Positions 21,462 to 44,745 of a DNA stretch of 64,000 bases are shown in pieces (the stretch's first letter is position 1; the number at the start of each line of letters is the position of its first letter). Below the pieces are notes generated by a model, which saw only the letters and a list, made by a program, of their open reading frames with translations, made no database searches and was not told where the DNA came from. This DNA comes from a virus: positions 1 through 64,000 of the IMG/VR virus record IMGVR_UViG_3300010399_000034. One strand, 5' to 3'. The position numbers were made by a program, and so were the translations under genes.

Positions 21462-21464
21462 TTT

Positions 21465-22808: not shown

Positions 22809-23692
22809 CGAAGTACGTCTCGCTCTCCACGGATCAGAAGGTCGCGTATGCGATCTGGGCGCCGCTCGTCGTTCGCTTCTGGCGGCACCTCGGCTATACG
22901 CCGATCGTCTTCGTGCACCATGGCGATTGGAGCGGGCGATTCGAAGACTTCGTTCTGGCAACGCTCGTCAAGACTCCCGGTGTTCGACTCGAGTATGTCC
23001 CGCGCACCGAGCCGCTCTCGGTCGGGAACACGATGCGTGTCGCGCGACTTGCCGCGGGCTCGCTAGCCGGCATTCAGCCCGACGACTTCATTATCACGGC
23101 CGACATCGACATGGCGCCGATCTCGCGCGCGTTCTTCGAACGCGACCCGGCGCAGATCTGGCTCTTGCGTGCGGACATGTACGGCGGGATTCCTGGCGCC
23201 GCAGGCCTCTTACATGACAAGCAGCCGGCGTTGATCTGCGGACAGTTTCGGCTTCCGCTCTGCTACATCGGGATGCCTGCAATCGTCTGGCAGAAGATCA
23301 TGCCGTACGCCGACGGCGATCCGATCCGCTCCATTCGCAACATCAACCACGGGCTCGGCTGGGATGCTCACGATCACGACGAGGCGTGTACGTCGGCGCG
23401 CTTGCTTCTCTCGAGCTGGGGCGCGGGCCCGCTCGTCTGGCAGGAAGATGGGACGTGGAAGCAAGGCGCGCTGAACATCATCCCGAAGACCGACTGGCCC
23501 AAGGGGACGCCGATCGGGATGCTCCTCGGCGGACAAGCTCGCACGTACAAGGAGCTTGACCCTAGCATTGTAGACTGGCATATGAAGGAAGTCGGGCGCT
23601 GGGTTGGAAGCGCCCTCTCTGTCTTCTGGCCGGAAGAGAAGGACTTCATCGACTCGTACTGGCCTGAAGCGTGTCGGCTCGCAGGGGTGTGA
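22793..23692 (+). CDS. Glycosyltransferase-like protein with D-x-D motif
   Basis: 299 residues from ATG 22793; GTG 22805, overlapping the upstream stop, is an equally good start (295 residues). It begins with alternating strands and helices of a nucleotide-sugar fold, and TADIDMAP near residue 105 provides the D-x-D expected to hold a metal and nucleotide sugar. DAHDHDE and other acidic pairs follow. It overlaps the dehydrogenase gene, consistent with use of its product. Specificity unknown. Confidence 0.6.
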   Translation: MVEVVTKYVSLSTDQKVAYAIWAPLVVRFWRHLGYTPIVFVHHGDWSGRFEDFVLATLVKTPGVRLEYVPRTEPLSVGNTMRVARLAAGSLAGIQPDDFIITADIDMAPISRAFFERDPAQIWLLRADMYGGIPGAAGLLHDKQPALICGQFRLPLCYIGMPAIVWQKIMPYADGDPIRSIRNINHGLGWDAHDHDEACTSARLLLSSWGAGPLVWQEDGTWKQGALNIIPKTDWPKGTPIGMLLGGQARTYKELDPSIVDWHMKEVGRWVGSALSVFWPEEKDFIDSYWPEACRLAGV

Positions 23693-23694
23693 TC

Positions 23695-24036
23695 GTGCGT
23701 CTTCTCGGGTGGAGCTCGGTGCTTCTTGGATGCGTCTCGGTGCATCCATCGTTGCGCGTCGTCCCGGCGTTGGAGATCGACGATCCGACGTACGCGCAGG
23801 CGCAGCGCGGGTGTGTCGAAGCTCGTGCGCATGCTGCGGGTGACGAGGACGCGCTCTTCGAGGTTGATCGCATCTGCCAGACGGTGGAGGTCGGCTTCGC
23901 GTTCTTGCGCGAGCACCCAACGATGACGGCCGAGCGCGCGATCGATGAAGGCGTGCACGGTGTCGACGCCGAGGCCCTCAGTGCAGGCCTCGGCGCGTGG
24001 ATGGAGCTCCAAGAGCTCGTGCGAGGCCTCCGATGA
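23695..24036 (+). CDS. Small putative lipoprotein
   Basis: 113 residues from GTG 23695, chosen because it puts a short signal peptide at the start: MRLLGWSSVLLGC, a good lipobox with Cys 13. The rest is an acidic helical domain with two Cys (RGC, RIC). It overlaps the previous stop region and the next gene (ATGA). Probably a periplasmic or outer-membrane lipoprotein; function unknown. Confidence 0.6.
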   Translation: MRLLGWSSVLLGCVSVHPSLRVVPALEIDDPTYAQAQRGCVEARAHAAGDEDALFEVDRICQTVEVGFAFLREHPTMTAERAIDEGVHGVDAEALSAGLGAWMELQELVRGLR

Positions 24037-24692
24037 GAGAAGCAGTCTGGAACGCCTTCCAATGGCTTCAGACGGACGGCGCTTACCCGAACGGGCCGCA
24101 GCCTGCCGCGCTCTGCCACGTCTACCGCGCAGCGAACGAGGGTTGGCTGCCGAAGGACGTCGATGTCACACGCATCCTTGTTGTAGGGCCCGGGTCGCAT
24201 CACGAAGTCGACCTCCTCGTCTCGAAGCTCGGGCAGACGGCGCGTGTGACTGTGCTGACTGCGTACGAGGGCGAAAGCTACGAAGGGTACGGGCACGTCA
24301 GCGACGACGTTCACGACACGGATCTGCCCTCCGCGTATTTTGATCTGATCTTCAGCTCGAACGTCTTCGAGCACGTCTTCGCGCCGTACGTTGCGCTGAT
24401 GGAGTGTCGGCGGCTTCTTCGCAAGGGCGGTTACTTCTACGCGATCGTGCCGACGTTCGACACGGCCGGCGGCGGCGTCACGCCGTGGCACATCTCCTGT
24501 CTCGCAGGAAAGCATTGGTCCGAGCTCCTCAACAAGACCGGCTTCGTCTGTGAGCGCATCGAACACGTCGGCGAAACGCTCGAAGGCGGCGCGCTCGAGA
24601 TGTACTTCCACATCCGTGCTCGTGCTGTCGACCTTCAAGAGCCACACGCCGAAGTCATGCGCCGACTGATCGAAGCGAAGGAATCACGATGA
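24033..24692 (+). CDS. SAM-dependent methyltransferase, class I
   Basis: 219 residues from ATG 24033. ILVVGPGSHHEVDLL (about 47-61) is motif I; DLIFSSNVFEHVFAP (about 104-118) and a following LLRKGGYFYAIVP strand match Methyltransf_11/23 proteins, which act on small molecules or sugars. First of four clustered methyltransferases with little mutual similarity outside the fold. ATGA overlaps on both sides. Substrate is probably a glycan or its precursor, given the neighbours. Confidence 0.7.
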   Translation: MREAVWNAFQWLQTDGAYPNGPQPAALCHVYRAANEGWLPKDVDVTRILVVGPGSHHEVDLLVSKLGQTARVTVLTAYEGESYEGYGHVSDDVHDTDLPSAYFDLIFSSNVFEHVFAPYVALMECRRLLRKGGYFYAIVPTFDTAGGGVTPWHISCLAGKHWSELLNKTGFVCERIEHVGETLEGGALEMYFHIRARAVDLQEPHAEVMRRLIEAKESR

Positions 24693-25396
24693 ACATTGAC
24701 AAGGCTCGTTCGTTCTGGAAGGTCGCGCGCGACTTCCCGCCCGAGAAGGAGACCGTCTATCCCGCACACGCGAAGGCGCACCACTTCGACGAGCAGGCGA
24801 AAGGACGCGTGCTCGAGTACGGCTGCGGCGGTGGGAGCGACACGATCTCGCTGCTTAGGCGTGGTGCCGAAGTCTTCTTCGTCGACATCGTCTCGGAGAA
24901 CGTAGCGACGACGCGCGAGCGCGTGACGCAGTGGTGCCGTGATCAAAAGGGCGTTGCCCCCGAAGGGCGCGCTGTGGCCGCCGGCTGCATCCTCGAGCGC
25001 TCCGAAGACCTTCCGTTCGAAGAGGCGTGCTTCGATTCGGTCAACTGCCACGGCGTGCTGCACCACATTCCAGTCACGACGATGTTCGATGTGATCCAGG
25101 AAATGCTCCGCGTGCTCAAGCCGGGCGGGCATCTCTACGCGATGCTCTATACCGAACATCTCTGGAAGAAGTGCTGGCCGACGATGGAGGGGCTGATCAA
25201 CCAACGCAGGTGGGCCGACGATCGCGCCTTCGGCTACATGACCGACGGCGGCAACGATTCGGACTGGTGCATCGCGCGGTCGTACACTGAAGCGGAAGGC
25301 CGCGAGCTCTTCGAGGAGCTCGGCTTCGAGTTCGTAGAGGCGACCGAGTACAACGACGCCGATTTTCGGACCTTCGTCTTGAGGAAGCCGCTGTGA
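24689..25396 (+). CDS. SAM-dependent methyltransferase, class I
   Basis: 235 residues. VLEYGCGGGSDT (41-52) is the SAM-binding motif, FVDIVSENV the second strand, and HGVLHHIPV with LRVLKPGGHLYAML later is typical of the Methyltransf_11 family. The C-terminal half contains YTEAEGRELFEELGF, as seen in small-molecule methyltransferases. Overlaps neighbours by ATGA and GTGA. Likely modifies a sugar or lipid-linked intermediate. Confidence 0.75.
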   Translation: MNIDKARSFWKVARDFPPEKETVYPAHAKAHHFDEQAKGRVLEYGCGGGSDTISLLRRGAEVFFVDIVSENVATTRERVTQWCRDQKGVAPEGRAVAAGCILERSEDLPFEEACFDSVNCHGVLHHIPVTTMFDVIQEMLRVLKPGGHLYAMLYTEHLWKKCWPTMEGLINQRRWADDRAFGYMTDGGNDSDWCIARSYTEAEGRELFEELGFEFVEATEYNDADFRTFVLRKPL

Positions 25397-26070
25397 CAGA
25401 TGAACGAACGAAGGTCGATCACGACGTTCAGGCCTGGTACGCCGATCCGTCGCGTTGGGCGCCGCAGGGCAAGAGCTACGAATGGCCGGATCGCGTGCTC
25501 CTCGCCGACGGCGAACAACAAGGCGCGTTGGTGCACAACAAGGACGTGCTCAATCTCGGCTGCTTCTATCCCGAGGACGAGCTTTACTTCGGGCATACCG
25601 CTCGGACGTGGACGGCGATCGACTTCGTGCCAGACGTGATCGCGCTCTGTCTCTCACGCTTCGAGTGGACGAAGAATGTCAGCTTTCTCGTCGCCGACAT
25701 GCGGGCGCTTCCGTTCGCCGACGCGTCCTTCGACGTGGTGACCGACTTCTCGTCGGGCGATCATCTTCTTCGCGAGGACTGGCACAAGGTCATCACCGAA
25801 GCGCATCGTGTCCTTCGTCCCGCCGGGCACTTTCTCGTCTGCTACGCCAACCGTGCGGCCTTTGAAGCGCTCGGGCCGTACTGGAAAGAGTGTGGCGACC
25901 GCCCCGGGGACTACGGCTACGTTCGGACGGATACGAAAGAGGCCATGCAGCAGATGCTCGAGGAGCGCGGCTTCATGGTGATCAAGCACTCGCACGACAA
26001 CGTCGGACAGCTCCGTTCGGGGATGTTGGCGGTGAAGCGCTCGCCAGCGCGTACGTCCAGTCGCCCGTAG
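25393..26070 (+). CDS. SAM-dependent methyltransferase, class I
   Basis: 225 residues, GTG start overlapping the upstream stop. Motif I is modified (VLNLGCFYPEDE near 50-61), then VADMRALPFADASFDVVTDFSSGDHL and AHRVLRPAGHFLVCY clearly show the Methyltransf_11 fold. The unusual motif I (YPEDE for the normal glycine-rich loop) means SAM binding should be checked. Ends just before a promoter-like box at 26075. Confidence 0.7.
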   Translation: MTDERTKVDHDVQAWYADPSRWAPQGKSYEWPDRVLLADGEQQGALVHNKDVLNLGCFYPEDELYFGHTARTWTAIDFVPDVIALCLSRFEWTKNVSFLVADMRALPFADASFDVVTDFSSGDHLLREDWHKVITEAHRVLRPAGHFLVCYANRAAFEALGPYWKECGDRPGDYGYVRTDTKEAMQQMLEERGFMVIKHSHDNVGQLRSGMLAVKRSPARTSSRP

Positions 26071-26074
26071 TGCA

Positions 26075-26089
26075 GTGCTAGACTGCAAG
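26075..26089 (+). promoter_or_regulatory. GCTAG-type promoter box
   Basis: GTGCTAGACTGCAAG lies 12 bases before ATG 26102 in a 31-base gap. Three similar boxes occur at 30682, 42492 and (- strand) 53795-53810. TAGACT is a possible -10; no good -35 is visible here. GAGGTGAGC between the box and the start serves as ribosome binding site. Confidence 0.35.
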
Positions 26090-26101
26090 TCGAGGTGAGC
26101 A

Positions 26102-26857
26102 ATGCCGAGTGAAGCGAACGACGAACGGATTTGGTGGGATGCGGCCGCGGTCGACATTCAATCCGCGAAGGGCAAGATCGCAGCGGACGAGTCAGCGTGG
26201 AGCGGCGAGCTCCTCGAGCGTTGCCTCGAGCAGATCATACCGACACTCGATGCTCACTGCGATCGGGCGAAGCCGGCGTGCGTCCTCGATCTCGGCTGCG
26301 GCATAGGGCGGCTCACGATTCCGATCTCGCAACGACGGCTCAACTGGACGCTGCACGGCGTGGACATCTCGTGGAACATGATCGAGCTTGCCTACAAGCT
26401 CGACGCCCACATTCAATGGAGCACGTGCAACGGACGAACGCTGCCGTACGACGAAGCAGCATTCGATGCCGTGTACTCGATGATCACACTTCAGCACCTC
26501 CCGCGCGAAGCGCAGCGTGGCTACATCCATGAAGTCGCGCGTGTGCTTCTTCCAGGAGGCGTCTTTCGCTTCCAGGTGCTTGAAGGAACGGCTGAGTCGT
26601 TCATGTGGAACGAACTAGACGAGGCGTATCTTCATGCGTCGTGTGCGGCGACAGGGTTGAAGATCACTGCGCTCAATCGCGTCGCACCGCTTTCGGGCGG
26701 CGATGCGAAGGTGCTCTGGGTGACCGCGGTGAAGCGTGACGCCACTCCGCCGGCGGCCGAGGAGCTCACGCCTGCCGAGGTGCCTTCGAAGAAGCCGAAG
26801 GCGGCCACCAAGAAGGACGTGAAGAAGACGACAACCAAGCGCGGGAGGAAGTCATGA
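26102..26857 (+). CDS. SAM-dependent methyltransferase with Lys-rich tail
   Basis: 251 residues. VLDLGCGIGRLTIP (61-74 region) is an ideal motif I, and YSMITLQHLP plus ARVLLPGGVFRFQVLE complete the Methyltransf_11 core. From about 220 onwards the chain is a low-complexity Glu/Pro/Lys tail (KKPKAATKKDVKKTTTKRG), unlike the other three methyltransferases; such tails bind acidic polymers or membranes. It has its own promoter-like box. ATGA overlap with the next gene. Confidence 0.75.
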   Translation: MPSEANDERIWWDAAAVDIQSAKGKIAADESAWSGELLERCLEQIIPTLDAHCDRAKPACVLDLGCGIGRLTIPISQRRLNWTLHGVDISWNMIELAYKLDAHIQWSTCNGRTLPYDEAAFDAVYSMITLQHLPREAQRGYIHEVARVLLPGGVFRFQVLEGTAESFMWNELDEAYLHASCAATGLKITALNRVAPLSGGDAKVLWVTAVKRDATPPAAEELTPAEVPSKKPKAATKKDVKKTTTKRGRKS

Positions 26858-26973
26858 ATCTCGACCTGAAACAGCCAGCGAGTTTCCTTCTGTGGAGCGT
26901 TGCGGTGTTGGTGTTCGCTGTGATCGCACGTCTGGGGTGGGAGCTTGGTGGTCGGCTCTGGACGATCTTCTGA
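26854..26973 (+). CDS. 39-residue single-span membrane peptide
   Basis: ATG 26854 overlaps the preceding stop (ATGA), and its own stop overlaps the next start (TGATG), which is strong evidence that it is translated. The 39 residues have a polar start, one hydrophobic helix (about 11-26) and a short end WELGGRLWTIF. Could be a membrane tether for the adjacent enzymes. Unknown family. Confidence 0.55.
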   Translation: MNLDLKQPASFLLWSVAVLVFAVIARLGWELGGRLWTIF

Positions 26974-28037
26974 TGCGCACGCAGATCACACACCTGAAGC
27001 TCGCGCGCTATCCGGAGCTCCTCGCCGGGCCCGTGCGTCCAATACATTGGGACGTCGACCCGAGCTCGGTGTGCGATCATCGCTGCCGCGGATGCCCGTA
27101 CATCTTCGACGGGCCTATCGATCCGATGCTCGGTGTCGTTCGTCCCGAGTCGCACGTTGCGCGTCGTACGCTACTCGAGCTCGCGACCTTCTTGCGCTTC
27201 CTCGACCAGGCGGTCGAGAACGGTTGTAAGGCCATCACGTTCGTCGGCGGAGGCGAGCCGACGATCCATCCTGACTTCACGCGCATGATGCAGGCTGCAA
27301 CGGAACGCGGTGTGAAGTTCGGGGTCATCACGCACCTCGGGCGCAAGTACAGTCCGGACTTCTTCAAAGCACTCGCGCACGCGACGTGGGTGCGCGTCAG
27401 CGTGAACGCGGGGACGCCGGACACGTACCAGCGCCATCAGGGCAAGGACCACTTCACGCAGGCGATCGACAACATGGAGACGGCGGCCGAGCACGGGACG
27501 CGCGTCGGCATGTCGTTCTTGATCACGAACGACAACTACGAAGAGATCGTGCTCGCAGCGGCGCATACCAAGGCCGTCGGCGGCCACTTCATTCAGTACA
27601 AGCCGATCATCGAGCTCGAGCTCGGTAAGGCCTACGAGGGCATCGAAGAGGCGATCGCGAAGCGGCTCGAGGCCGCTCGTGGTCTCGTCGAAGACGGCTT
27701 CCAGGTCATCGATCAGTGGTCCTCGCGCTTCGAGGAGCTCCGTCGCCACGAGCGTGGCGAGTTCAAGGGGCTGTGTCACGTCCCACGTTTCAATCCGAAG
27801 CTCGGCGCCAACGGCATCGTCTACACGTGCTGCGAGCTCGCATACTCCGAAGAGGGCGCGATCGGCTCCATCTACGACGAGCCGCTAGTCGACATCCTCG
27901 AGCGCGCTGGTAAGAAGTGTATGGAGATGAGCAAGTGCCCGCACTGTTGGGACAAGCCTCTCAACACGCTGATCAACGAAGGTCGCCTCGGCGAGGCGCA
28001 GGTCCCGCCCGAGAGCATCGACAAGGAGTTCGTGTGA
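26973..28037 (+). CDS. Radical SAM enzyme with SPASM-like C-terminal Cys cluster
   Basis: 354 residues from ATG 26973. CDHRCRGC at 34-41 is the C-x3-C-x2-C that binds the [4Fe-4S] cluster; FVGGGEPTIHPDF follows as the SAM-contact GGE motif. The C-terminal part has additional Cys (GLCHV, TCCEL, KCMEMSKCPHC), resembling the extra-cluster SPASM/twitch region. These enzymes do radical chemistry on peptides, sugars or cofactors. Embedded in the glycan cassette, so an unusual sugar modification is possible; peptide modification is the alternative. Confidence 0.8.
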   Translation: MRTQITHLKLARYPELLAGPVRPIHWDVDPSSVCDHRCRGCPYIFDGPIDPMLGVVRPESHVARRTLLELATFLRFLDQAVENGCKAITFVGGGEPTIHPDFTRMMQAATERGVKFGVITHLGRKYSPDFFKALAHATWVRVSVNAGTPDTYQRHQGKDHFTQAIDNMETAAEHGTRVGMSFLITNDNYEEIVLAAAHTKAVGGHFIQYKPIIELELGKAYEGIEEAIAKRLEAARGLVEDGFQVIDQWSSRFEELRRHERGEFKGLCHVPRFNPKLGANGIVYTCCELAYSEEGAIGSIYDEPLVDILERAGKKCMEMSKCPHCWDKPLNTLINEGRLGEAQVPPESIDKEFV

Positions 28038-28315
28038 GCCGGCCGACTATCAGTGATTCGGAATACTGGGCGGCTGTAAAGGCCGTTCCGCCACCAATCG
28101 GAACGCAGTGGGAGTCCGATCCTTCTGCGTCGAGCGATCGACTGCGCTTGTTTCGCAACCAAGGCGGTGAGATTTGCGTCGTCTATCCCGACGGTGTGTG
28201 GGCTGTTGACGAACGTGGCGGCTACAACTTCTGTGCGCGTGGCCGAGAGGTCGATCTACACTCTGCGATGCGTCGTGCATTGCGTGTCGCGGAAGCGCTT
28301 GGTTGGTTCGAATGA
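28034..28315 (+). CDS. Small soluble protein of unknown function
   Basis: 93 residues, GTG start overlapping the radical SAM stop (GTGA). It contains a short strand-rich part (LRLFRNQGGEICVVYPDGVWAVDE) and a C-terminal helix. The middle resembles a small recognition or accessory domain, but I recognise no family. It overlaps the epimerase start by four bases. Confidence 0.6.
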   Translation: MSRPTISDSEYWAAVKAVPPPIGTQWESDPSASSDRLRLFRNQGGEICVVYPDGVWAVDERGGYNFCARGREVDLHSAMRRALRVAEALGWFE

Positions 28316-29418
28316 AGCGCGTCCTCGTCATCCTCGGCACGCGTCCCGAAGCGATCAAGCTCTGGCCGGTGATCAATACGCTCCGCTCGCGCGATCTCGA
28401 CGTGCGTGTTGCCTCGACGAATCAGCAGCCGGATCTTCTTCAGCCGATCCTCGACGAGCTCGGCATTGATGAGGAGTACGCGCCATTGCCCGCGTTCGAA
28501 TCGGCGCTCGAAGGAAAGCCACTCGATGCGCGACTCGGTGCGTGGATCACCTGGCTCGGCGAGATCGTGCGCATCGCTCGCCCAGATCTTGTCATCGTCC
28601 AGGGCGACACCACGACCGCGCTCGCAGGTGCGCTCGCTGCCTTCTACAACCAAGTGCCGATCGCGCACGTCGAGGCCGGCCTACGCACGTACGACCTGAC
28701 GAGTCCGTTCCCGGAAGAGGCGAATCGGCAGATGATCGCGCGGCTCGCAACGCTGCACTTCGCTCCGACCAAGGCAGCTCGTGCGGCGCTTCGAATGGAG
28801 CTTCGAGACGGTTGGCGCTCCATGGTCGAAGCGGACGCAGACAAGCCCACACGCGGCATCTTCCTCGTCGGCAACACCTCGGTCGACGCGCTGCACATGG
28901 CAATGAAGCTTCCTGGGTTGTCGCACGAGCTGCCGCCCGCAGACATCCTCGTGACCTTCCATCGACGCGAGTCGTGGCCGGAAGCGAAGCAGGTCGTCCA
29001 CGCGGTAGACGAGCTCGCGAAGAGCGGACGCAAGGTCACTTGGGTGCTTCACAAGAACGTCGTCGGCGACATTGCAATGCAGGAGGCGCGACACATGCGC
29101 CTTGTTCCGGCGCTCCCCTATGGCGCCTTCGTCGATCAGCTCCTCAACGCCAAGCTCGTGATCACCGACTCGGGTGGCGTTGTCGAGGAAGCCGTCACGA
29201 TCGGCGTTCCGACGATCATGCTTCGCAATGCCACGGAGCGTAGCGAAGCGCTCGATGCTGGCGCGGATATCCTAGGTCTCGATGAGCTCCACCTGCTCGA
29301 ACGTGCTGTCGATGCGCAGCTCACGCGCGGCCGCAATCCATCCGACGTCTTCGGCGACGGCAAAACCGCAGAACGCATTGCCGATCGCGTCTGCGACTTC
29401 CTGCGTGCGAAACGCTGA
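28312..29418 (+). CDS. wecB: UDP-N-acetylglucosamine 2-epimerase
   Basis: 368 residues, normal family length. GTRPEAIKLWPV (9-20), VQGDTTTALAGALAAF (about 99-114), IAHVEAGLRT and FPEEANRQ, then TFHRRE and ITDSGGVVEEA are all landmark motifs of non-hydrolysing UDP-GlcNAc 2-epimerases. It converts UDP-GlcNAc to UDP-ManNAc in the cytoplasm. With the dehydrogenase at 21465 this would supply UDP-ManNAcA, a sugar of surface polysaccharides. ATGA overlap with the gene before and TGATG with the one after. Confidence 0.9.
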   Translation: MKRVLVILGTRPEAIKLWPVINTLRSRDLDVRVASTNQQPDLLQPILDELGIDEEYAPLPAFESALEGKPLDARLGAWITWLGEIVRIARPDLVIVQGDTTTALAGALAAFYNQVPIAHVEAGLRTYDLTSPFPEEANRQMIARLATLHFAPTKAARAALRMELRDGWRSMVEADADKPTRGIFLVGNTSVDALHMAMKLPGLSHELPPADILVTFHRRESWPEAKQVVHAVDELAKSGRKVTWVLHKNVVGDIAMQEARHMRLVPALPYGAFVDQLLNAKLVITDSGGVVEEAVTIGVPTIMLRNATERSEALDAGADILGLDELHLLERAVDAQLTRGRNPSDVFGDGKTAERIADRVCDFLRAKR

Positions 29419-36393: not shown

Positions 36394-36573
36394 TCAGCGT
36401 TTGCTCTTCCGAGGACCACCCTTGCTCTTCTTCCGTTCCTTCCGGCGTCGGAGCGTCTTTGGATTGCCGTTCGCCGGCTTGGTCGAGATCTCGACGGGCG
36501 TGCTCTCGAGGAGCGCATCGAGACCGGCGATGCCCGCATTCAACGGGATGCGAATCCGCGGTACGAGCTTCAT
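36394..36573 (-). CDS. 59-residue basic protein
   Basis: ATG 36573 overlaps the recombinase stop (ATGA). 59 residues: a polar N-terminal half and a strongly basic C-terminal half (LRRRKERKKSKGGPRKSKR). Its stop codon lies in the loop of a small hairpin (AACGC-TGAGA-GCGTT) directly before the binding site of the next gene. Likely nucleic-acid binding, possibly a recombination directionality factor given the position beside the recombinase; that is a guess from context. Confidence 0.5.
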   Translation of the reverse strand: MKLVPRIRIPLNAGIAGLDALLESTPVEISTKPANGNPKTLRRRKERKKSKGGPRKSKR

Positions 36574-37448
36574 GCGTCCCTCATCTTCTTCCGGACCTGC
36601 CGGAGTAGCTTTGCCGACTCGAGCGCGGCTGCTTCGTCGAGGTAGCCGTCGGTCGTCTCGGGCGAGTCGTGGTTCAAGATCTTCTGAACAGCGAACCTGT
36701 TACCAGAGATCATGCCTGCTTGCAATGCTACGGTGCGACGAAGCCGATGCAAATAGATTCTGTCCTCGATGCCCGCAGCGGCCGCGAGCTCGTGAAGCTT
36801 GCGCCGACAGGCCTGATACGCTGCGCCGTTCGCGGTCCAGTCGTCCGTCTTGCTGACGGCCGTGGCGACGAGCTGACCTTCGCCGAGGCGATCGCGCAGG
36901 CGCTTCCATTCCCGCTTGGCGCCGAGCACCGAATAGACGATCGGCTTACTCCCCTTCACCACGATCCGTGTGATCCCGTCCTCGCGTGCGAATCCGGCAT
37001 CGATGACCCCAGCGTCGGTCCGCAGCACGTCCGAGACGCGCAGAGCCGAGCTGCACATCACGTCGATCACCCGGCCGGCCGTCGTCTCGTCTGCCTCTAC
37101 GAGTCGAAGGAACGGCCTCCACAGCTCGATCGGGATGGACACGGCCTCCTTGAGCCGCTTGGGCTCCTTGCGCCTCTTCCTCTTGCGGTGCGACGCCGGC
37201 TCGGGCGGGAGCTCGGCGGGCGGTGGAAGCCTGTTCCGGCGCCCCTCAGATTCGCAGAAGTCGGCCCAGAGGGCCCACGCCCAGCGGTAGTCACGCAGGC
37301 GCTTGCGGAGCATTTGCGAGGCCGGCGGGCTCGTCCCGTGGTCGCGCATCGTCCTCACGTCGTTCGCAGCCTTCCGCGCCGAGGTGATCGCCAGCTTCTC
37401 GCGATCGATCATCCACGCACGAAAGCGGTCGAGTGCTTCGGCGTTCAC
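36570..37448 (-). CDS. Tyrosine recombinase (phage integrase family)
   Basis: 292 residues from GTG 37448, which overlaps the previous stop (GTGA). A helical N-terminal core-binding part and a basic linker (RKRKRRKEPKR) lead to the catalytic domain: SSALRVSDVL (first Arg), HRLRRTV (His-x-x-Arg) and LNHDSPETTDGYLDE (His and the nucleophile Tyr). The catalytic set appears complete, so it should be active in site-specific recombination such as integration, dimer resolution or inversion. No att site could be recognised. Confidence 0.85.
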   Translation of the reverse strand: MNAEALDRFRAWMIDREKLAITSARKAANDVRTMRDHGTSPPASQMLRKRLRDYRWAWALWADFCESEGRRNRLPPPAELPPEPASHRKRKRRKEPKRLKEAVSIPIELWRPFLRLVEADETTAGRVIDVMCSSALRVSDVLRTDAGVIDAGFAREDGITRIVVKGSKPIVYSVLGAKREWKRLRDRLGEGQLVATAVSKTDDWTANGAAYQACRRKLHELAAAAGIEDRIYLHRLRRTVALQAGMISGNRFAVQKILNHDSPETTDGYLDEAAALESAKLLRQVRKKMRDA

Positions 37449-37933
37449 TTGGCCCTCGTGTATTCGTGGCCGCTCTCGGTGAGCTGCCAGATGCTTCCAC
37501 CGCGATACGCGCCAACGGAGAATGCGAGATCGCGACGTTTGAGCGCGTACAACGTCGCGTGGTGAAACGACCGCACCGATCCGCCGTGATCGATCGCGCG
37601 AAGGCACGCGAGCTGCACCTTGTTCAGGCGCCACTGGCGCGGGCGTGGACTCCGGATCTCGACGACGCGCTTGGTGATCGAAGGCCCCATGCAGCAAAGC
37701 CGAGCTCGGCCGAAGAACGAATCGTTCAGCGCGCACGTGCGGATCGCCGTCGCCGCGTTCTTCTGTTGCGCCCAAAGCAGCGCGCAGCGGACATGGAACG
37801 TCCAGCACCCGAGCTGCACCGGGTTGAATGCGAGCTTCTTACAGCGATCGCACGGCACCATCTTGCGGACTTCGTGCGATGTCTTCGGGCGATCGCATCG
37901 GCACGGCCCTTCTTTGATTTTGAGCTTGGGCAT
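37445..37933 (-). CDS. Cys-rich protein with winged-helix-like end
   Basis: 162 residues from ATG 37933. The N-terminal half has CRCDRPKTSHEVRKMVPCDRCKKL and three more Cys, a probable zinc site; the C-terminal half (KVQLACLRAIDHGGSVRSFHHATLYALKRRDLAF...IWQLTESG) resembles a winged helix. Such a mix suggests a DNA-binding regulator. It overlaps both neighbours. Confidence 0.55.
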   Translation of the reverse strand: MPKLKIKEGPCRCDRPKTSHEVRKMVPCDRCKKLAFNPVQLGCWTFHVRCALLWAQQKNAATAIRTCALNDSFFGRARLCCMGPSITKRVVEIRSPRPRQWRLNKVQLACLRAIDHGGSVRSFHHATLYALKRRDLAFSVGAYRGGSIWQLTESGHEYTRAK

Positions 37934-38734: not shown

Positions 38735-38788
38735 GATCACCACCTCCATGCGATCCGCGAGCGTTCGCGGATCGGAGCAGGCTGCGAT

Positions 38789-39373
38789 CTACTTCAGAAG
38801 ATGCAGGAGCGCGCCGATCTTCTCGGCACGCTCACGCGCCTGCGCTGCGCGCTTGCTCGCGTTGCCGTTGGCGTATTCGGACAGGTGGCGCAGGATGTGC
38901 CCGACGATCGGGTTGATCTCGTATTCGCTTGCGACTTCCTGGATCGTGAGCTCACGCTCGGACGACTCCCACGCGGAGATCGATCCTTGCCAGCGCGACC
39001 ACGATCCCGTGTATTCGAGCTCTACGAAACTGCCGTCATCGCGAATGAAGAGATCGGTACCCTCGTACGCCCCGCTGTTGGAACGCGGATTGTCCTCGAT
39101 CGCGCCGGGCCATTTGTCCGAGACGCACATGCCACGCCACGCGGCACGCTTGCTGCTCTCGCGTTGCGAGTCCGTCGCTAGGCCCGTGCAGCGATATTCG
39201 ATCTTCGGCCGACTACACAACGCCGGTAGCGCTCCGCCGAGCTTGGCGATGACCGCTTCGAGTAAGAGCGCATCCGCTTTGTTCTCTTCGGCGATCGCGC
39301 TCACGAGCGCGACGTGCTGCGCCTCGACCGTCTTTGCAAGCGTCTCGATCTGATTCAACGTTTCGGTTTCCAT
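38789..39373 (-). CDS. Soluble protein of unknown function
   Basis: 194 residues, ATG 39373 with GAGGAGGA. A coiled-coil-like N-terminus (1-50), a middle part with strands and Trp/Gly loops, and a basic helical end. Its leader contains RNA element D. No family recognised. Confidence 0.6.
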   Translation of the reverse strand: METETLNQIETLAKTVEAQHVALVSAIAEENKADALLLEAVIAKLGGALPALCSRPKIEYRCTGLATDSQRESSKRAAWRGMCVSDKWPGAIEDNPRSNSGAYEGTDLFIRDDGSFVELEYTGSWSRWQGSISAWESSERELTIQEVASEYEINPIVGHILRHLSEYANGNASKRAAQARERAEKIGALLHLLK

Positions 39374-39420: not shown

Positions 39421-39476
39421 TTGATCTGCGCTCGGACAGCGCTCTCGCGTGAGAGCACCTACCGGCCGAAGATCAA
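39421..39476 (-). promoter_or_regulatory. Structured RNA element D
   Basis: Read on the - strand: outer arms TTGATCT (39476-39470) and AGATCAA (39427-39421); conserved CGGCCGGTAGG on the 5' side and GTCCGAGCG on the 3' side; inner hairpin GCTCTC-ACGC-GAGAGC. The upstream stop codon TGA (39475-39473) is inside the 5' outer arm. In this copy the next start is 48 bases further, behind GAGGAGGA. See elements A, B, C and E. Confidence 0.75.
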
Positions 39477-39721
39477 TCCTGTCGAGCGGCCTCCCGCCAC
39501 TGGTAGCGCTGCGTTGCTTCGTTGACCTCGAGTGCCGCATTGATGAGCTCGCTCATCGTATAGGTCCGTTGAAACCGATACGGCAGCGCATCGTCGAGCC
39601 GTCGCTCGGCTTGATCCGTTTCGCCCCAACCACCCTCAGGGCAGCCTACGAAGCTTCCGAGAGCTCGACGGATGTTCGGGTTGTTGAGCGCTTGATTGAG
39701 CGTCTGTTTCTTCTCGGACAT
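39473..39721 (-). CDS. Small helical protein
   Basis: 82 residues from ATG 39721 with GGGGGAG upstream. Helical, polar, one Cys; contains QALNNPNIRRALGSFVG and MSELINAALEVNEATQRYQW. Its stop codon is part of RNA element D. Unknown family. Confidence 0.55.
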   Translation of the reverse strand: MSEKKQTLNQALNNPNIRRALGSFVGCPEGGWGETDQAERRLDDALPYRFQRTYTMSELINAALEVNEATQRYQWREAARQD

Positions 39722-39732
39722 CGCTCCCCCTT

Positions 39733-40116
39733 TCACTCGCACGCTTCGGTGCACTCCGGCGATTCCAAGATCGCGCGGACGTTGACACAGTTGTCGCCCT
39801 GCTCCGCGAGCTCGCGTGCGCAGAACGCCACCGCTTCCGCATTGCAGACTCCGGCGAACGGGCACGCGACATCGCACTCGTTCGCGACCATTTCGCATGC
39901 CTCGGCCGTGTCGATCGTCTCGGGGCCCGCGTCGAGCGCCTGCCCGGCGTCCGCGCCCGAGTCGCAGTCGTGAAGGCACGTGATCGGATGCCCGTCGATC
40001 GGTTCGAGTTGCCCGGCGTCGTTCACGAGCTCGGGGCCCGCATCCGTTTCGGCAGGAACGTGACACACGCCGCATCCGCCGAGCATGAGCACGCACGCAA
40101 TCAAGAGTCGTCGCAT
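39733..40116 (-). CDS. Cys-rich lipoprotein with Asp-Ala-Gly linker
   Basis: 127 residues from ATG 40116, GGGAGG upstream. MRRLLIACVLMLGGC is a lipoprotein signal (Cys 15). The mature part starts with a DAG-rich linker and then has about ten Cys in ACEM, ECD, ACPFAGVC, FCA, NCVN, ECTEAC. Asp-Ala-Gly linkers after a lipobox are common in Myxococcota, from general knowledge. A cell-surface protein with a disulfide-rich domain; function unknown. Confidence 0.65.
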   Translation of the reverse strand: MRRLLIACVLMLGGCGVCHVPAETDAGPELVNDAGQLEPIDGHPITCLHDCDSGADAGQALDAGPETIDTAEACEMVANECDVACPFAGVCNAEAVAFCARELAEQGDNCVNVRAILESPECTEACE

Positions 40117-40140
40117 TTGGAAACCTCCCATGGAGCGCCC

Positions 40141-40160
40141 GGGGGCTCGAACCCCGGACA
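40141..40160 (-). other. T-arm-like hairpin in a leader
   Basis: On the - strand CCGGGG-TTCGAGC-CCCCGG (about 40142-40160) has the stem and seven-base loop of a tRNA T-arm and is followed by GCGCTCC, which could pair with GGGGCGC about 70 bases upstream. No anticodon arm can be drawn and the 3' end lacks CCA, so it is not called as a tRNA. It forms a stable hairpin just before the lipoprotein start. Confidence 0.4.
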
Positions 40161-40222
40161 CAGGACTCAGCATGCGATCTTCGCCGCAGCAGCCTGCATG
40201 CACCAACGTGCGCCCCGAAGAA

Positions 40223-40651
40223 TCAGCCTAGCCATTCATGCTTGAGGCTATACCCTCGCGCGTAGCACTCCGGCGTAGGCTTGTTGGCAGCCTTGAAGCT
40301 CCCGGACGTGGTCCGCTCCTCTCCACCGCCTTTCGATTCCGGATGAAGCGTCAGGCTCAGCTCGTGAACGAGCGCAAAGCCCATATCCATGCCGCACCCA
40401 CTGATGCCCACAGCTTCGCGTCGTTCGTCGAATCGATATCCGAGCGCCTTAGCTACGTTGTAGCTGAGCCACAAATGATCGATGCGGCCCTCATCTCCAC
40501 ACTTGAACACGTAGAGATCGATCGCGCGGTACATGCCCGAGCGAGCGACGTGCCGAAGGACGCACGTCACGACGGATCCGGGCGGAAGAATCTCCCGCAA
40601 GCGCTCGATCGCCTCTTGCCGCTCCGCTTCTTTCTCTTTCTTGCTCGCCAC
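40223..40651 (-). CDS. Conserved phage protein of unknown function
   Basis: 142 residues from GTG 40651, giving AGGGTGG-AAATC-GTG. LPPGSVVTCVLRHVARSGMYRAIDLYV, then VGISGCGMDMGFALVHELS and an H-E-W-type end belong to a family I know from many phages and plasmids (LRHVSRSGMxRxI... GGCGMDMGFxLVY). No function established. Its leader is RNA element A. Confidence 0.7.
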   Translation of the reverse strand: MASKKEKEAERQEAIERLREILPPGSVVTCVLRHVARSGMYRAIDLYVFKCGDEGRIDHLWLSYNVAKALGYRFDERREAVGISGCGMDMGFALVHELSLTLHPESKGGGEERTTSGSFKAANKPTPECYARGYSLKHEWLG

Positions 40652-40667
40652 GATTTCCACCCTTTCA

Positions 40668-40732
40668 GCGTTGAATCCCGCTCGGAGTCCGCGTGTCAGC
40701 TAGACGCGCGGCTACCGGCCGCTATTCAATGC
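40668..40732 (-). promoter_or_regulatory. Structured RNA element A
   Basis: Read on the - strand: outer arms ATTGAAT (40730-40724) and ATTCAAC (40676-40670); conserved GCGGCCGGTAG and CTCCGAGCGG; inner hairpin CCGCGCGTC-TAGCT-GACACGCGG. The upstream stop TAG (40734-40732) lies directly before the 5' outer arm. The ribosome binding site GAAAGGGTGG follows the 3' arm. Confidence 0.75.
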
Positions 40733-41145
40733 TACCCCTGCGCTGCTTCGATTTCTTCCCATGAATCAGGGTCCACGTAGGTGTCCACGAGGTACTCTTC
40801 TGCTTCCGCGTTCGTCTCGAACGGGCCCGCCCATTCGGTGCAGTCCATGTAACCGGAAGCGCTCAGCCGAGCGAAATAGCCGTGGACGTATTCCGCATCG
40901 GCAAGGCCCTCGACCCCGTTCGGATGATCGAGTTCATCCGGCGTCCCTTCGCAGTAGTCTTGCACCGCATCGATCGTCGGATAGCCGTGCTCTTGCGCCT
41001 TTTCGTCACCGATCAGATCGGCGGGGACCGTGTACGTTTCGCCACCATTGCAGCTCACAGCCCATGCGCCCATGAGCTCGATCTCGGGGGACATGAACTG
41101 CGCTTCCAAGTGCGCCATGCCCTTCGCTCGTTCGTTGTTGTCCAT
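40732..41145 (-). CDS. Acidic soluble protein
   Basis: 137 residues, ATG 41145 with GAAGGGAG. Strongly acidic (pI will be low), helical and strand parts mixed, ends in a Tyr/Asp/Glu-rich segment (EEYLVDTYVDPDSWEEIEAAQG in outline). Early phage proteins that mimic DNA or block host enzymes are often like this, but nothing more specific is visible. Leader: RNA element B. Confidence 0.6.
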   Translation of the reverse strand: MDNNERAKGMAHLEAQFMSPEIELMGAWAVSCNGGETYTVPADLIGDEKAQEHGYPTIDAVQDYCEGTPDELDHPNGVEGLADAEYVHGYFARLSASGYMDCTEWAGPFETNAEAEEYLVDTYVDPDSWEEIEAAQG

Positions 41146-41160
41146 CGTGTTCTCCCTTCG

Positions 41161-41217
41161 GTTGAATCCGCTCGGACGAACGCGAGCCGAGCTCGCGTCC
41201 TACCGGCCGGGTTCAAG
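41161..41217 (-). promoter_or_regulatory. Structured RNA element B
   Basis: Read on the - strand: outer arms GCTTGAACC (41217-41209) and GGATTCAAC (41169-41161); conserved CGGCCGGTAGG and GTCCGAGCGG; inner hairpin ACGCGAGC-TCG-GCTCGCGT. The upstream stop TGA (41215-41213) sits in the outer stem; CGAAGGGAG follows. Confidence 0.75.
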
Positions 41218-41986
41218 CTTCGCAAACCTCCCACGCGCGTTTCGCAGGATCGGTCGGAGGCCTGTAGTGTCCCCCAGCGCAAAGCAGCCCGCAGCGCTTA
41301 CAGGTCCGGCGTGGCGACGTCCAGCGGCGCGCTACCGCCCAATAGGGCTCGACCAACGGATCATCGTCGAGCGCGCTCCATCCGTGGTACGACGCGGCCA
41401 GTTCGTACAGATAACAGACATCGCGCGGGAGTCCGCTCAGGGCCGCTTCGAAGATCTCCCACGGATCTTGATCCGTGTAACGCGCGATGCTCTCCCATTC
41501 GCACCAGTCGAGCGCGCTCCGAATGTCCTCGGGAGTTGCGCCTACGGGAACCCTGTAGACTTCGAGCCCCGTCTTTCGATACGCGCGCTGCTCCTCACGC
41601 GTGCCGTATTCGTCGCCGTCCGTTTCGGCGCCTTCGATCCCGGGCGTGTATTCGAGCATGAGCTCGCACCCGTAGCGCGAGCGGACCTTGACCAGCGCTC
41701 CGCCCCCGTGATCCTCGGGCGAGGTATCACCGATCCGCTCGATCACGGTCCGGCGTACACCGCGAGGCTTGCGCTCGTGCATGCCGACGAGGGAGGCGCG
41801 AAGCTCGCGCGCACGTACATCGCCACTCTCCGGGCGCCCTGCGACGTAGTCCGCGGGATCGCCCTTCGGCTCGTATCCGCCCGCTGCGCGCCACGCTGCG
41901 TAATCGCGCAGAGCCGCTCGCGCTTCGCTGTACTCACCACGAACGAACGCGCGTTGCGCGCGTTGTAGACATGCTTCCGGATCCAT
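41213..41986 (-). CDS. Soluble protein with C-terminal zinc site
   Basis: 257 residues from ATG 41986. A helical repeat-like start (QRAQRAFVRGEYSEARAALRDYAAW) suggests a TPR-like unit. The middle is mixed alpha/beta with many acidic and Tyr residues; the C-terminus has CKRCGLLCAGGH and a final Cys as possible zinc ligands. Leader: RNA element C and AGAAGGGAGGGG. Unknown family. Confidence 0.6.
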   Translation of the reverse strand: MDPEACLQRAQRAFVRGEYSEARAALRDYAAWRAAGGYEPKGDPADYVAGRPESGDVRARELRASLVGMHERKPRGVRRTVIERIGDTSPEDHGGGALVKVRSRYGCELMLEYTPGIEGAETDGDEYGTREEQRAYRKTGLEVYRVPVGATPEDIRSALDWCEWESIARYTDQDPWEIFEAALSGLPRDVCYLYELAASYHGWSALDDDPLVEPYWAVARRWTSPRRTCKRCGLLCAGGHYRPPTDPAKRAWEVCEA

Positions 41987-42004
41987 GATCAACCCCTCCC
42001 TTCT

Positions 42005-42060
42005 TTGATCTGCGCTCGCACGGTGCGCTCGGATGGAGCGCACCTAGCGGCCGTAGATCA
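42005..42060 (-). promoter_or_regulatory. Structured RNA element C
   Basis: Read on the - strand: outer arms TGATCT (42060-42055) and AGATCA (42011-42006); conserved CGGCCGCTAGG and GTGCGAGCG; inner hairpin TGCGCTC-CATCC-GAGCGCA. The upstream stop TGA (42060-42058) is the start of the outer stem. Here the central pair is C and G where elements A, B and D have G and C. Confidence 0.75.
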
Positions 42061-42240
42061 CTCAAGATCGAAAGCGATCAACTCAGCCATCATGCCGGGG
42101 CGCTCCGCGTTCAGTACGCGGAATGCGGCCGCTTCGTTGACCGCATACGCGCTGAACGTCTCGCCGTCCGCGCACTTGTAGTAGTAGCGCGATCCGCCAC
42201 CGGCCTGCCGTGCGCGTTCCTCCTGAGTCTGCCGCTCCAT
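42058..42240 (-). CDS. 60-residue protein, first gene of the leftward operon
   Basis: ATG 42240, GAAAGAGGGG upstream. 60 residues, polar N-terminus, then a strand/helix region (YYYKCADGETFSAYAVNEAAAFRVL). As the first leftward gene next to the control region it would be made earliest; a repressor or antirepressor could sit here, but no DNA-binding motif is seen. Confidence 0.55.
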   Translation of the reverse strand: MERQTQEERARQAGGGSRYYYKCADGETFSAYAVNEAAAFRVLNAERPGMMAELIAFDLE

Positions 42241-42513
42241 CCGATCCCCTCTTTCCGGCCGGCTTCCGCCGCGCTCGAATCCTAGTATTGCATGCGGCGG
42301 GCCAAGTCAGCTAGGCACCCTTGCTAGCTGACAAAAGGCCCTGTCGGACTATAGTCCGACAACGCGATCGGCCTCGAGCTCGCACCCACACCTACATGTA
42401 GCCCTGTGAAGAAAAAGGCCCTCAAACCGTGCCGATCCGGCCCAGACTACATGTAGGTGTGAGCCGGCTCGGCGCGATCCAAGCTGGCACGGCGCTAGCA
42501 TTGTAAGGGTTCC
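42241..42513. promoter_or_regulatory. Divergent control region with three inverted repeats
   Basis: This 273-base gap separates the leftward and rightward operons. It holds: an inverted repeat of GTCAGCTAG (42306-42314) and CTAGCTGAC (42324-42332); CTGACA (42328-42333) and TATAGT (42350-42355) spaced 16 bp, a good rightward promoter whose -10 lies inside the perfect 20-bp palindrome TGTCGGACTATAGTCCGACA (42342-42361); 15-bp arms CACACCTACATGTAG (42387-42401) and CTACATGTAGGTGTG (42447-42461), each containing a 10-bp palindrome; and a GCTAG box (42492-42507) before ATG 42514. A leftward promoter is less clear (TTGGCC, 15 bp, TAGGAT near 42281-42303). Confidence 0.7.
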
Positions 42514-42777
42514 ATGGAAGGCGGAACGGCGAGTAGGACGGTGTGGATCGAGCGGAGCAAGGTCTACCCCGCTCCCGGCTCGAACCCGCGCTATCAATGG
42601 CGCTGGATCTACCGCCTCCGTTGCGAGGGTTTCACCGGCCCGACCTGGACTATGCCGGACGGCCGCTCGGGTGCAGTGTCCTTCGAAGGGCAGACCCTCA
42701 GCACCATCCGCCAAACGGCGGCGAAGATCGCTCGCGAGCACGGCGCGGCCGTCCGCGAAGCATGGAAGGAAGGCTGA
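42514..42777 (+). CDS. Small protein, first gene of the rightward operon
   Basis: 87 residues; AAGGG before ATG 42514. Trp/Arg-rich first half (YQWRWIYRLRCEGF), strand-type middle and a helical end (IRQTAAKIAREHGAAVREAW), like small phage proteins that interact with DNA or replication proteins. Unknown family. Followed by ATG 42780 after a TGATC junction. Confidence 0.6.
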   Translation: MEGGTASRTVWIERSKVYPAPGSNPRYQWRWIYRLRCEGFTGPTWTMPDGRSGAVSFEGQTLSTIRQTAAKIAREHGAAVREAWKEG

Positions 42778-42779
42778 TC

Positions 42780-43430
42780 ATGAAGCGCTACAGCGAATGG
42801 TCCCCGAGTCCGCACGACACCAAGGGGCTCAATCTGCCGGACCGGCAGGACTGGATCGTGGTCCCCACGATTCGCGCGCGCGACTCGGGCCCGCTGGACG
42901 AGTCCAACTTCGCTGTGGCTCTCGCGACGCTCGGCGGCGAGAACGCCGGAGAAGACGAGAACGGCGAGAACGGCATGATCGAGACGCACTCGTTCAATCA
43001 CTGGGCGTGCGGATGGTTCGAGATCATCCTGGCTCACCCTTCGCGCGAGCTCGAAGTACAGGCGATCGCCGATCGGCTCGAAAACTATCCGATCTTGGAC
43101 GAGAACGACCTGTCGGAGCGTGAGCTCGAAGCAGAAGGGGAGGGATGGGAGAGCTACGCCCGGCGCGACGTCACGCGCAAGCTAGTCGAGGATTTCGGCC
43201 TCAGCGATGCGGCGGAAGCCTTGCTCGACGAATCGGGCGAGACGATCTACGCGGCGTTGATCTGCGGGCACCACTACTCGGAAGGGATCAAGACTCAGAT
43301 CCAGGTCGAGCACGACGACGAAGGGCCTCGCTTCGATACGGATCAACTCGATCCGATGACGCGCGAGGAAATGGCGTTGCTTCTTCGGCTCTGCCGCAAA
43401 GAGAAGCGCGCCGCGATGGCCAAAGTCTGA
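42780..43430 (+). CDS. Conserved phage/plasmid protein of unknown function
   Basis: 216 residues from ATG 42780. The signature HWACGWFEIILAHPS, followed by ADRLENYPILDENDLSERE, belongs to a widespread phage and plasmid family (HWxxGWxE...L.DYPVLDE) known to me without a function. The last 80 residues are specific to this protein. Followed by a hairpin junction at 43431-43506. Confidence 0.7.
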   Translation: MKRYSEWSPSPHDTKGLNLPDRQDWIVVPTIRARDSGPLDESNFAVALATLGGENAGEDENGENGMIETHSFNHWACGWFEIILAHPSRELEVQAIADRLENYPILDENDLSERELEAEGEGWESYARRDVTRKLVEDFGLSDAAEALLDESGETIYAALICGHHYSEGIKTQIQVEHDDEGPRFDTDQLDPMTREEMALLLRLCRKEKRAAMAKV

Positions 43431-43500
43431 TCTTCGCGTTCGCTCCGGCGCACGAGTCCTACTCGTGCTCCGCGTGAGACTGCGAAGTCTGAAGGGAAGG
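43431..43500 (+). promoter_or_regulatory. Stop-to-start hairpin junction, variant
   Basis: Directly after the stop TGA comes CTTCGC, pairing with GCGAAG near 43484-43489, with an inner hairpin CACGAG-TCCTA-CTCGTG. GAAGGGAAGGG and TTTCA-ATG follow. The placement equals that of elements A-E, but the conserved GGCCGSTAGG and CGAGCG loops are absent, so it is a related design, not another copy. Confidence 0.5.
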
Positions 43501-43506
43501 GTTTCA

Positions 43507-43932
43507 ATGCGTGGGATCAAGGTTCCGAGCGCGGCGCGGCTCTGCACGGCGTTCCCGCAGCTCGAACGTGAGCAAGCTTTGTTGATCCGGAAGCTCGCGC
43601 ACGTGCGCGATGAACCGGAACGGCTCGGCGCATTGCTCGAAAAGGAGTGTCCGGAAACGGACGCGTATCGGCGCCGCTGCTACAACGATCCGCTCGATTC
43701 ACGGATGTGGCGCACTACGCTGGTGCTCCATGCGATCGATCTGATCCTCGGAACGTCCGGCGTAGAAGTCTTGGGCGAGCCCGAAGATTTCAGATCGGCG
43801 CCTCCGTACGAATACTGCAATACCGGCGATTCGTACGGCACGACGTTGGTCTACCACCGCGACGCGGACGCGATCCGGATCGGAAGCTGGGCTGACATCG
43901 CAGAACGGATGCCCGAGAAAGGCGAGGGTTGA
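43507..43932 (+). CDS. Soluble protein of unknown function
   Basis: 141 residues, ATG 43507 behind GAAGGGAAGGGTTTCA. Helical first half, then a strand-rich end with acidic and aromatic residues (APPYEYCNTGDSYGTTLVYH). Unknown family. Confidence 0.6.
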   Translation: MRGIKVPSAARLCTAFPQLEREQALLIRKLAHVRDEPERLGALLEKECPETDAYRRRCYNDPLDSRMWRTTLVLHAIDLILGTSGVEVLGEPEDFRSAPPYEYCNTGDSYGTTLVYHRDADAIRIGSWADIAERMPEKGEG

Positions 43933-43934
43933 TC

Positions 43935-44237
43935 ATGGACTGGAAACAACGACACACCGAAGCTATGCGCGCTCCGCGTGGACGCGAGCTCGCGATCGTC
44001 CGCATGCTGCAAGCGTGGGAGCTGTACCGCGAGCAGCACCGACAAGCCTACGAATCCGGGATCGGAGATGACGGCGTGCTCGGGCCCGAATGGGCGGCAA
44101 TCGGTTTCGCGATCCGCGGACTCCTGAACGGAGATTGCGGACGCTTGGACTGCGGCACGATCGACGGCGGGATCTGCGACGCGCTTACCGCCGAGGGCTT
44201 CGATCCGTACATCGAGGGCGAACGTCTACCGCGTTGA
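43935..44237 (+). CDS. Conserved phage protein of unknown function
   Basis: 100 residues from ATG 43935 (an in-frame TTG at 43929 overlaps the upstream stop). The core YESGIGDDGVLGPEWAAIGFAIRGLLNG and GRLDCGTIDG match a family seen in phages and plasmids (IGDDGVLGxAW..IG.AL..LLNG..GRLDCGTLD). No function known. Its stop codon is part of RNA element E. Confidence 0.7.
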   Translation: MDWKQRHTEAMRAPRGRELAIVRMLQAWELYREQHRQAYESGIGDDGVLGPEWAAIGFAIRGLLNGDCGRLDCGTIDGGICDALTAEGFDPYIEGERLPR

Positions 44238-44289
44238 ATCTGGCCGCTAGGCGCTGAGTCATGCTCGGCGCCGTGCGAGCGGAGTCAAC
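44233..44289 (+). promoter_or_regulatory. Structured RNA element E
   Basis: The only + strand copy. Outer arms GTTGAATC (44233-44240) and GAGTCAAC (44282-44289), one mismatch; conserved TGGCCGCTAGG and GTGCGAGCGG; inner hairpin CGCTGAG-TCATG-CTCGGCG. The upstream stop TGA is 44235-44237 and AGAAGGGAAGGG follows. Since it is inverted together with the genes, the element belongs to the transcript, not to a fixed DNA strand. Confidence 0.75.
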
Positions 44290-44307: not shown

Positions 44308-44745
44308 ATGAACGAGCGAGATCTCCCGCGCACGCCGCGCAAGCGGCCGCGCCGAACGGTCGAGAAGAAGCTGCGCGAGCTTCGCGCGGACGAGGTTACG
44401 TTCACGCTCGAGATCGAGCCGGAATGCGAGCCGTATGTCGGGAACTGCTCGGCGATCGATCCCGAGACGGATCGCGAGCAAGAGGACTGGATCCGGCGCG
44501 AGCTCGACGCCGGCAACGTCGCCGCATGGTGCTCGGTTGTCGTGCGAGCCACATGGGAAACGCCTACCGGCCGCACGATCGTCGGGATCGCTTCCCTTGG
44601 CGCGTGCTCCTACCGCAGCGTCATGGAGATCCGCCGCGAGCTGTATCCAGAGATGTGCGAGAACGCTCTCGACGATCTCAATCGCTCGATCGGAGCAATC
44701 TTCGATTCCGCGGATGCGCTCCGCAACGCGTTGAAAGAGGTCTAG
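44308..44745 (+). CDS. Soluble protein of unknown function
   Basis: 145 residues, AGAAGGGAAGGG before ATG 44308. Basic N-terminus (RTPRKRPRRTVEKK), acidic middle, and a helical C-terminus. Three Cys. No family recognised. Confidence 0.6.
   Translation: MNERDLPRTPRKRPRRTVEKKLRELRADEVTFTLEIEPECEPYVGNCSAIDPETDREQEDWIRRELDAGNVAAWCSVVVRATWETPTGRTIVGIASLGACSYRSVMEIRRELYPEMCENALDDLNRSIGAIFDSADALRNALKEV

Follow-up and report, generated by a model that had tools for sequence, protein, structure and literature searches.

The early mRNAs of phages T7 and SP82 carry RNase III processing sites in the form of irregular intercistronic hairpins of about two helical turns. The translational operators bound by the MS2 coat protein and by the T4 proteins RegA and gp32 overlap or adjoin the ribosome-binding site of a few genes, and the attC sites of integrons are folded sites lodged between short open reading frames (ORFs) and marked by an RYYYAAC/GTTRRRY core. 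A further set of intergenic phage elements, the extended start-associated sequences (ESAS, with the linked SAS), is found in cluster K mycobacteriophages and cluster EF Microbacterium phages (PMC3203893, PMC7302621, PMC11373665). Their authors found little support for mRNA hairpins (PMC3203893) and favour a DNA-binding or promoter role, the arms keeping a consensus without compensation (PMC3203893, PMC7302621, PMC11373665); a later paper places putative promoters within the ESAS (PMC11373665). Here, we describe an element present five times in a 64,000-base window, namely positions 1-64000 of an 86,806-base IMG/VR virus record (IMGVR_UViG_3300010399_000034; hereafter G000). Its covariation, its independent copies in four further viruses, its recovery by a model built without the window and the lack of an Rfam match support it as a new structured RNA element lying between the stop codon of one gene and the ribosome-binding site of the next.

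Read in the mRNA sense, the element consists of an outer stem (P1), a 2x2 internal loop with GC on the 5' and AG on the 3' side, a stem of three base pairs (P2), a second 2x2 loop with UA facing CU or GU, and a hairpin (P3). Its occurrences in the window, picked out in a preliminary description of this DNA and borne out by reading, alignment and folding, are:

40672-40730, minus strand: element A, core GC-CGG-UA ... CU-CCG-AG at 40681-40719; the upstream stop codon TAG lies 4 nt before the element
41162-41217, minus strand: element B, core 41171-41207; the TGA of the upstream gene lies within the outer stem
42006-42061, minus strand: element C, core 42015-42051; TGA within the outer stem
39422-39476, minus strand: element D, core 39431-39466; TGA within the outer stem
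44233-44288, plus strand: element E, core 44243-44279; TGA within the outer stem; in a rightward operon

The minimum-energy fold of elements B-E is a single rod, with 5' UA and 3' GU in the second loop; element A also forms a rod, with slight shifts in register, and its second loop has CU. The fold z-scores of the five range from -3.6 to -6.3 against dinucleotide shuffles. The preliminary description had placed the upstream TGA in the outer stem of B, C, D and E and the TAG against that of A, and had seen E as inverted along with its genes; all of this holds, E belonging to the rightward one of two divergent operons. The covarying S position that it had pointed out can now be located as the third pair of P2, a CGS/SCG helix between the two internal loops, which reads CGG/CCG in A, B and D and CGC/GCG in C and E.

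Such sites might have arisen by chance, or a family might have been read into common GC-rich hairpins of intergenic regions, and the short shared strings taken alone are indeed near expectation: GGCCGSTAGG with at most one mismatch has 12 matches in the window against 7.1+/-2.8 expected, and GTSCGAGCG has fewer matches than chance would give. Strong unrelated hairpins are also present in other gaps of G000. However, a joint descriptor demanding both loops, a paired 3-bp stem, an inner hairpin and an outer stem retrieves exactly elements A-E from the window, while ten 64-kb Markov shuffles yield no match. Together with the held-out model search, the separation of model scores and the eight compensated P2 sequences presented below, this renders an origin in chance hardly credible.

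The element is a real RNA family, so far unnamed, with 22 copies in five viruses, all of them metagenomic records that are possibly incomplete: 5 in G000 and 17 in four further IMG/VR viruses. The count of five copies in the preliminary description thus stands for the window and falls short as a total. Likewise, the shared GGCCGSTAGG and GTSCGAGCG are the version of the window virus, the only invariants of the family as a whole being GC..UA in the 5' strand and U..AG in the 3' strand. Two exact copies came to light in one contig (L009, 86,416 bp; virus G001) when 2.9 million viral contigs were scanned for the pattern; the 120 viral stretches returned by the first loose scan were nearly all chance matches, with real copies only in L009. 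A relaxed descriptor found nine or ten copies in G001 with differing P2 sequences, and later scans added the viruses G002 (16 kb), G004 (42 kb) and G005 (109 kb). The preliminary description had proposed a covariance-model search, and such searches of this genome and other viruses brought out further copies together with the covariation. A first model (R1), built from 15 copies including those of the window, detected 11 clear copies in G001, all on one strand and within 77.5-86.3 kb, along with one in G002, two in G004 and three in G005. With a second model (R2), built from all 22 copies, a search of 35 virus records scored true copies at 37.9 bits or more and background at no more than 20.5 bits; 31 of these records, searched whole, lacked the element. 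A single hit to the G001-type pattern among about 85,000 bacterial and archaeal species, represented by one genome each, came from a Chloroflexaceae metagenome-assembled genome (L197) and was judged to be chance; it was set aside, as were L167, L213, L220 and L227, for unpaired P2 or low model scores.

For a third model (R3), the window copies were left out and the other 17 alone were used. Searched against the whole 87-kb record, it returned four hits at E<=1, all of them elements (E, B, C and A). With filters off in the 36-48 kb region, the five elements took ranks 1-5, D having E = 0.0013 and the best hit outside the set E = 0.31; these E-values are rough, the calibration having been short.

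The preliminary description had also remarked that the stems vary with compensating changes, and the larger set documents this amply. Sixteen of 18 pairs display double-sided changes across the 22 copies. Such cells number 95, where shuffles have 29.7, and the covariation score is 0.658, compared with 0.204+/-0.020 for shuffled and at most 0.11 for slid alignments. The paired fraction of 87% drops to 25-40% in the slid controls. Alignments produced by model searches lean towards the structure of the model; the initial MAFFT alignments showed the same covariation, and it holds without the window copies and within smaller sets of copies. P2 occurs in eight sequences (CGC, CGG, CCC, CAC, CTC, CCG, GGC and GCC), each paired with its exact complement in 22 of 22 copies, and the length of P3 varies, from 4 bp up to a long irregular hairpin. 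The loops, in contrast to these varied but paired stems, are near-constant: GC, UA and the U of the second loop are found in all 22 copies, that loop reading CU in 18 and GU in 4, while AG is present in 21 and replaced by CG in one. Thus, the sequence of the stem is free, whereas the identity of the loops and their 3-bp spacing are fixed.

The placement of the element is equally regular. Every one of the 22 copies lies between co-directional ORFs in the same orientation as both neighbours. The upstream stop codon falls at -40 to +3 relative to the start of the element, the upstream gene being cut off at one copy at the contig end of G001; it is within 4 nt of that start in 13 copies and 13-40 nt upstream in seven. 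The next start codon follows the end of the element by 16-59 nt in all copies but one, where the distance is 82 nt. Among the inner paired columns, the sense strand shows 17 G-U wobbles against three A-C mismatches, and as such wobbles would be mismatches on the opposite strand, the folded strand is most likely the mRNA.

The element spans several virus lineages and has been retained across great divergence. G001 and G005 are distant relatives, whose best-matching proteins are 38-52% identical; both have kept the element between the members of an orthologous gene pair (38% and 32% identity), a small gene and, downstream of the element, an AAA ATPase gene. The proteins of G000 have no blastp match in the other four viruses at E<=1e-4. 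Within IMG/VR, the AAA protein of G001 has no relatives beyond its source record, and the terminase of this virus is nearest to those of an unassigned faecal phage and of actinobacteriophages, at about 35-42% identity. In G005, a separate stretch (L209:4168-4298) resembles Y RNA or tRNA, with matches to YrlA (E=1e-6) and tRNA (E=0.002) that are both below the gathering scores.

Runs of short ORFs in which a stop codon is followed by the element and then by the next start recall a gene-cassette array, and like attC the element is a folded site in one orientation between short ORFs; moreover, the window virus encodes a tyrosine recombinase (36570-37808). Could it then be an attC-like site for recombination of single-stranded DNA? 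We consider this very unlikely, as the PF00589 tyrosine recombinase is absent from G001, G002, G004 and G005, the RYYYAAC/GTTRRRY core of attC, with its GTT/AAC, is not conserved, the wobble asymmetry favours the sense RNA strand, and the same gene pair retains the element in two distant viruses.

The statement in the preliminary description that no described RNA has this pattern agrees with our comparisons. Rfam release 15 gave no match above the gathering threshold in the window, none at E<=1 in the 38.5-45 kb region and none at E<=0.5 at the positions of the element in G001 and G005; the known self-cleaving ribozyme classes of Rfam also have no match to the window elements. The ESAS share with the element the form of an imperfect inverted repeat, the recurrence in several intergenic gaps of a single phage and a position directly before a Shine-Dalgarno sequence of unusual conservation, and G001 offers a parallel to the SAS in its conserved extended Shine-Dalgarno block CTGAGAGGAG, which precedes 21 genes; about half of these also have the element. 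However, the arms of the present element vary and compensate while its loops are fixed, and the linked 13-bp SAS GGGATAGGAGCCC is not encountered: the leaders of the window differ from each other and G001 has its own block. The ESAS are known from cluster K, EF and EG phages; in four representative genomes, those of Anaya, Pixie, AnnaSerena and Hyperion, our models obtained no significant hit (best E about 1).

As for function, the preliminary description had offered an RNase processing site, a reinitiation device or the target of a viral regulator as possible roles. A promoter was rejected, no promoter-like match falling on the window elements, as was a terminator, the ten terminator-like sites in 36-48 kb all lying off the elements. 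Simple masking of the downstream Shine-Dalgarno sequence was likewise discarded, predictions giving it the same accessibility in the presence of the element as in its absence (0.50 and 0.51). This equality, together with the 16-59 nt separating 21 of the 22 copies from the start codon, argues against masking and leaves room for processing. Fixed loops on a rod of free sequence suggest in turn that the element has a trans-acting reader.

We therefore tentatively favour an intercistronic element for the punctuation or processing of mRNA that would be read by a protein. It would punctuate the polycistronic messages of short phage genes, where, in the sense mRNA, the outer stem, the two 2x2 loops flanking the free 3-bp stem and the terminal hairpin would form a rod of about 23-26 stacked positions. 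A trans-acting factor could recognize the two loops at their fixed spacing rather than the sequence of the stem, and a host endonuclease specific for double strands might then cut between the cistrons, as at the RNase III sites of T7. Such a cut would provide every downstream cistron with a 5' end of its own and would leave a protective hairpin on the upstream one. What the element shares with the sites of T7 and SP82 early mRNA is the form of an RNase III site: an irregular hairpin that spans about two helical turns, contains internal loops and separates co-transcribed genes; we know of no description of two symmetric invariant 2x2 loops at a fixed 3-bp spacing for those sites. No RNase III gene was found in the five viruses, and processing would accordingly need a host enzyme. 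This absence, combined with the lack of any G000 protein shared with the others by blastp, points to a reader of host origin, and a conserved host reader would explain the motif in viruses without detectable shared proteins.

Several points weigh against this proposal. RNase III does not usually need strict loop sequences, and the invariance of the loops would also fit a specific RNA-binding regulator. The sharing of the element without a common protein could reflect a fast-evolving phage regulator missed by blastp, and one outer-stem column keeps an A-C mismatch in 16 of 22 copies, a pair that would be a wobble on the other strand.

Another reading comes a close second, which we regard as possible, if less probable: the element could be an operator for a phage or host RNA-binding regulator that coordinates the translation or stability of a gene set without any cutting. 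Invariant loops on free stems have the look of a protein-binding site, and the copies form regulon-like sets, with 11 in 9 kb of G001 and five around one divergent promoter region in the window. As in the operators of MS2 coat protein, RegA and gp32, a protein would read a few unpaired bases to control a message. Unlike them, the element has up to 11 copies per phage and lies upstream of a ribosome-binding site whose accessibility it does not alter; in many copies 24-59 nt intervene before the start codon, a greater distance than for the classical operators, which overlap the Shine-Dalgarno sequence, and blastp found no phage protein in common.

The proximity of stop codons to the element (within 4 nt in 13 copies) invites yet another reading, in which ribosomes terminating in the outer stem would melt it, freeing its 3' strand to pair with a CCYGCU before the Shine-Dalgarno sequence, and so insulate translation or permit reinitiation. 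In most copies of G001 the 3' strand AGYGGG can indeed pair with a downstream CCYGCU, which is suggestive only; for most single copies the pairing is no better than in shuffled sequences, and it is absent from B, C and E of the window. Since the stop is 13-40 nt upstream in seven copies and the predicted accessibility is unchanged, we hold such a device to be unlikely.

The genes adjoining the window elements, called for this analysis from codon usage, and the control region between the two operons are:

42058-42240, minus strand: 60-aa gene upstream of C, opening the leftward operon; no Pfam or PHROG match
41213-41986, minus strand: 257-aa gene between C and B; no Pfam or PHROG match
40732-41145, minus strand: 137-aa gene between B and A
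40223-40651, minus strand: 142-aa gene after A; phrog_12365, unknown function
39473-39721, minus strand: 82-aa gene upstream of D
38789-39373, minus strand: 194-aa gene after D
43935-44237, plus strand: 100-aa gene upstream of E
44308-44745, plus strand: 145-aa gene after E
42241-42513, 273 bp: divergent intergenic region, source of both element-bearing operons

Elements A-D belong to the leftward operon starting at 42240 and E to the rightward operon starting at 42514. The divergent region between them resembles an operator region. It contains a perfect 15-nt inverted repeat, CACACCTACATGTAG / CTACATGTAGGTGTG, at 42387-42401 and 42447-42461 with 45 nt between its arms, a 20-nt palindrome at 42342-42361 and a promoter-like CTGACA-16-TATAGT at 42328-42355 on the plus strand. 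The 257-aa protein has no relatives in IMG/VR beyond its source record. A hairpin at 43431-43506 (plus strand) in the rightward operon, extending from stop codon to ribosome-binding site and similar in size, lacks the loops of the element and is not a member. At 38735-38788 (minus strand) there is a very stable intergenic hairpin of another design (z about -5.5), which includes the Shine-Dalgarno sequence GGAGG. The tyrosine recombinase gene (PF00589) is on the minus strand in the same leftward gene run as A-D, and its presence suggests that the virus may be temperate. The gap at 40117-40222 (minus strand) holds a stretch like the 3' end of a tRNA, CCGGGGTTCGAGCCCCCGGGCGCTCCA, with no tRNA call and, in Rfam, only a weak match to the tRNA-like mascRNA; with the integrase gene 2.3 kb away, it is possibly an attP core. 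Elsewhere in the window, 18918-29418 carries host-like genes for glycans and methylation, including a glycosyltransferase, a UDP-glucose dehydrogenase, a radical SAM protein and methyltransferases.

The element may thus represent a new RNA recognition module, in which two invariant 2x2 loops set three free base pairs apart would act as a common intercistronic signal in several viral lineages without detectable shared proteins, its putative reader being either a conserved host factor or a phage RNA-binding protein. It is a compact motif that can be searched for by covariance models and has a clear code of fixed loops and free stems. As such, it provides a handle on the expression layout of the many small genes in phages of uncultured hosts, a counterpart, at the level of RNA, to the start-associated repeats of actinobacteriophages, themselves poorly understood, and a direct route to fishing out the reader protein of a signal whose probable role is to mark the points of cleavage or control in phage messages.

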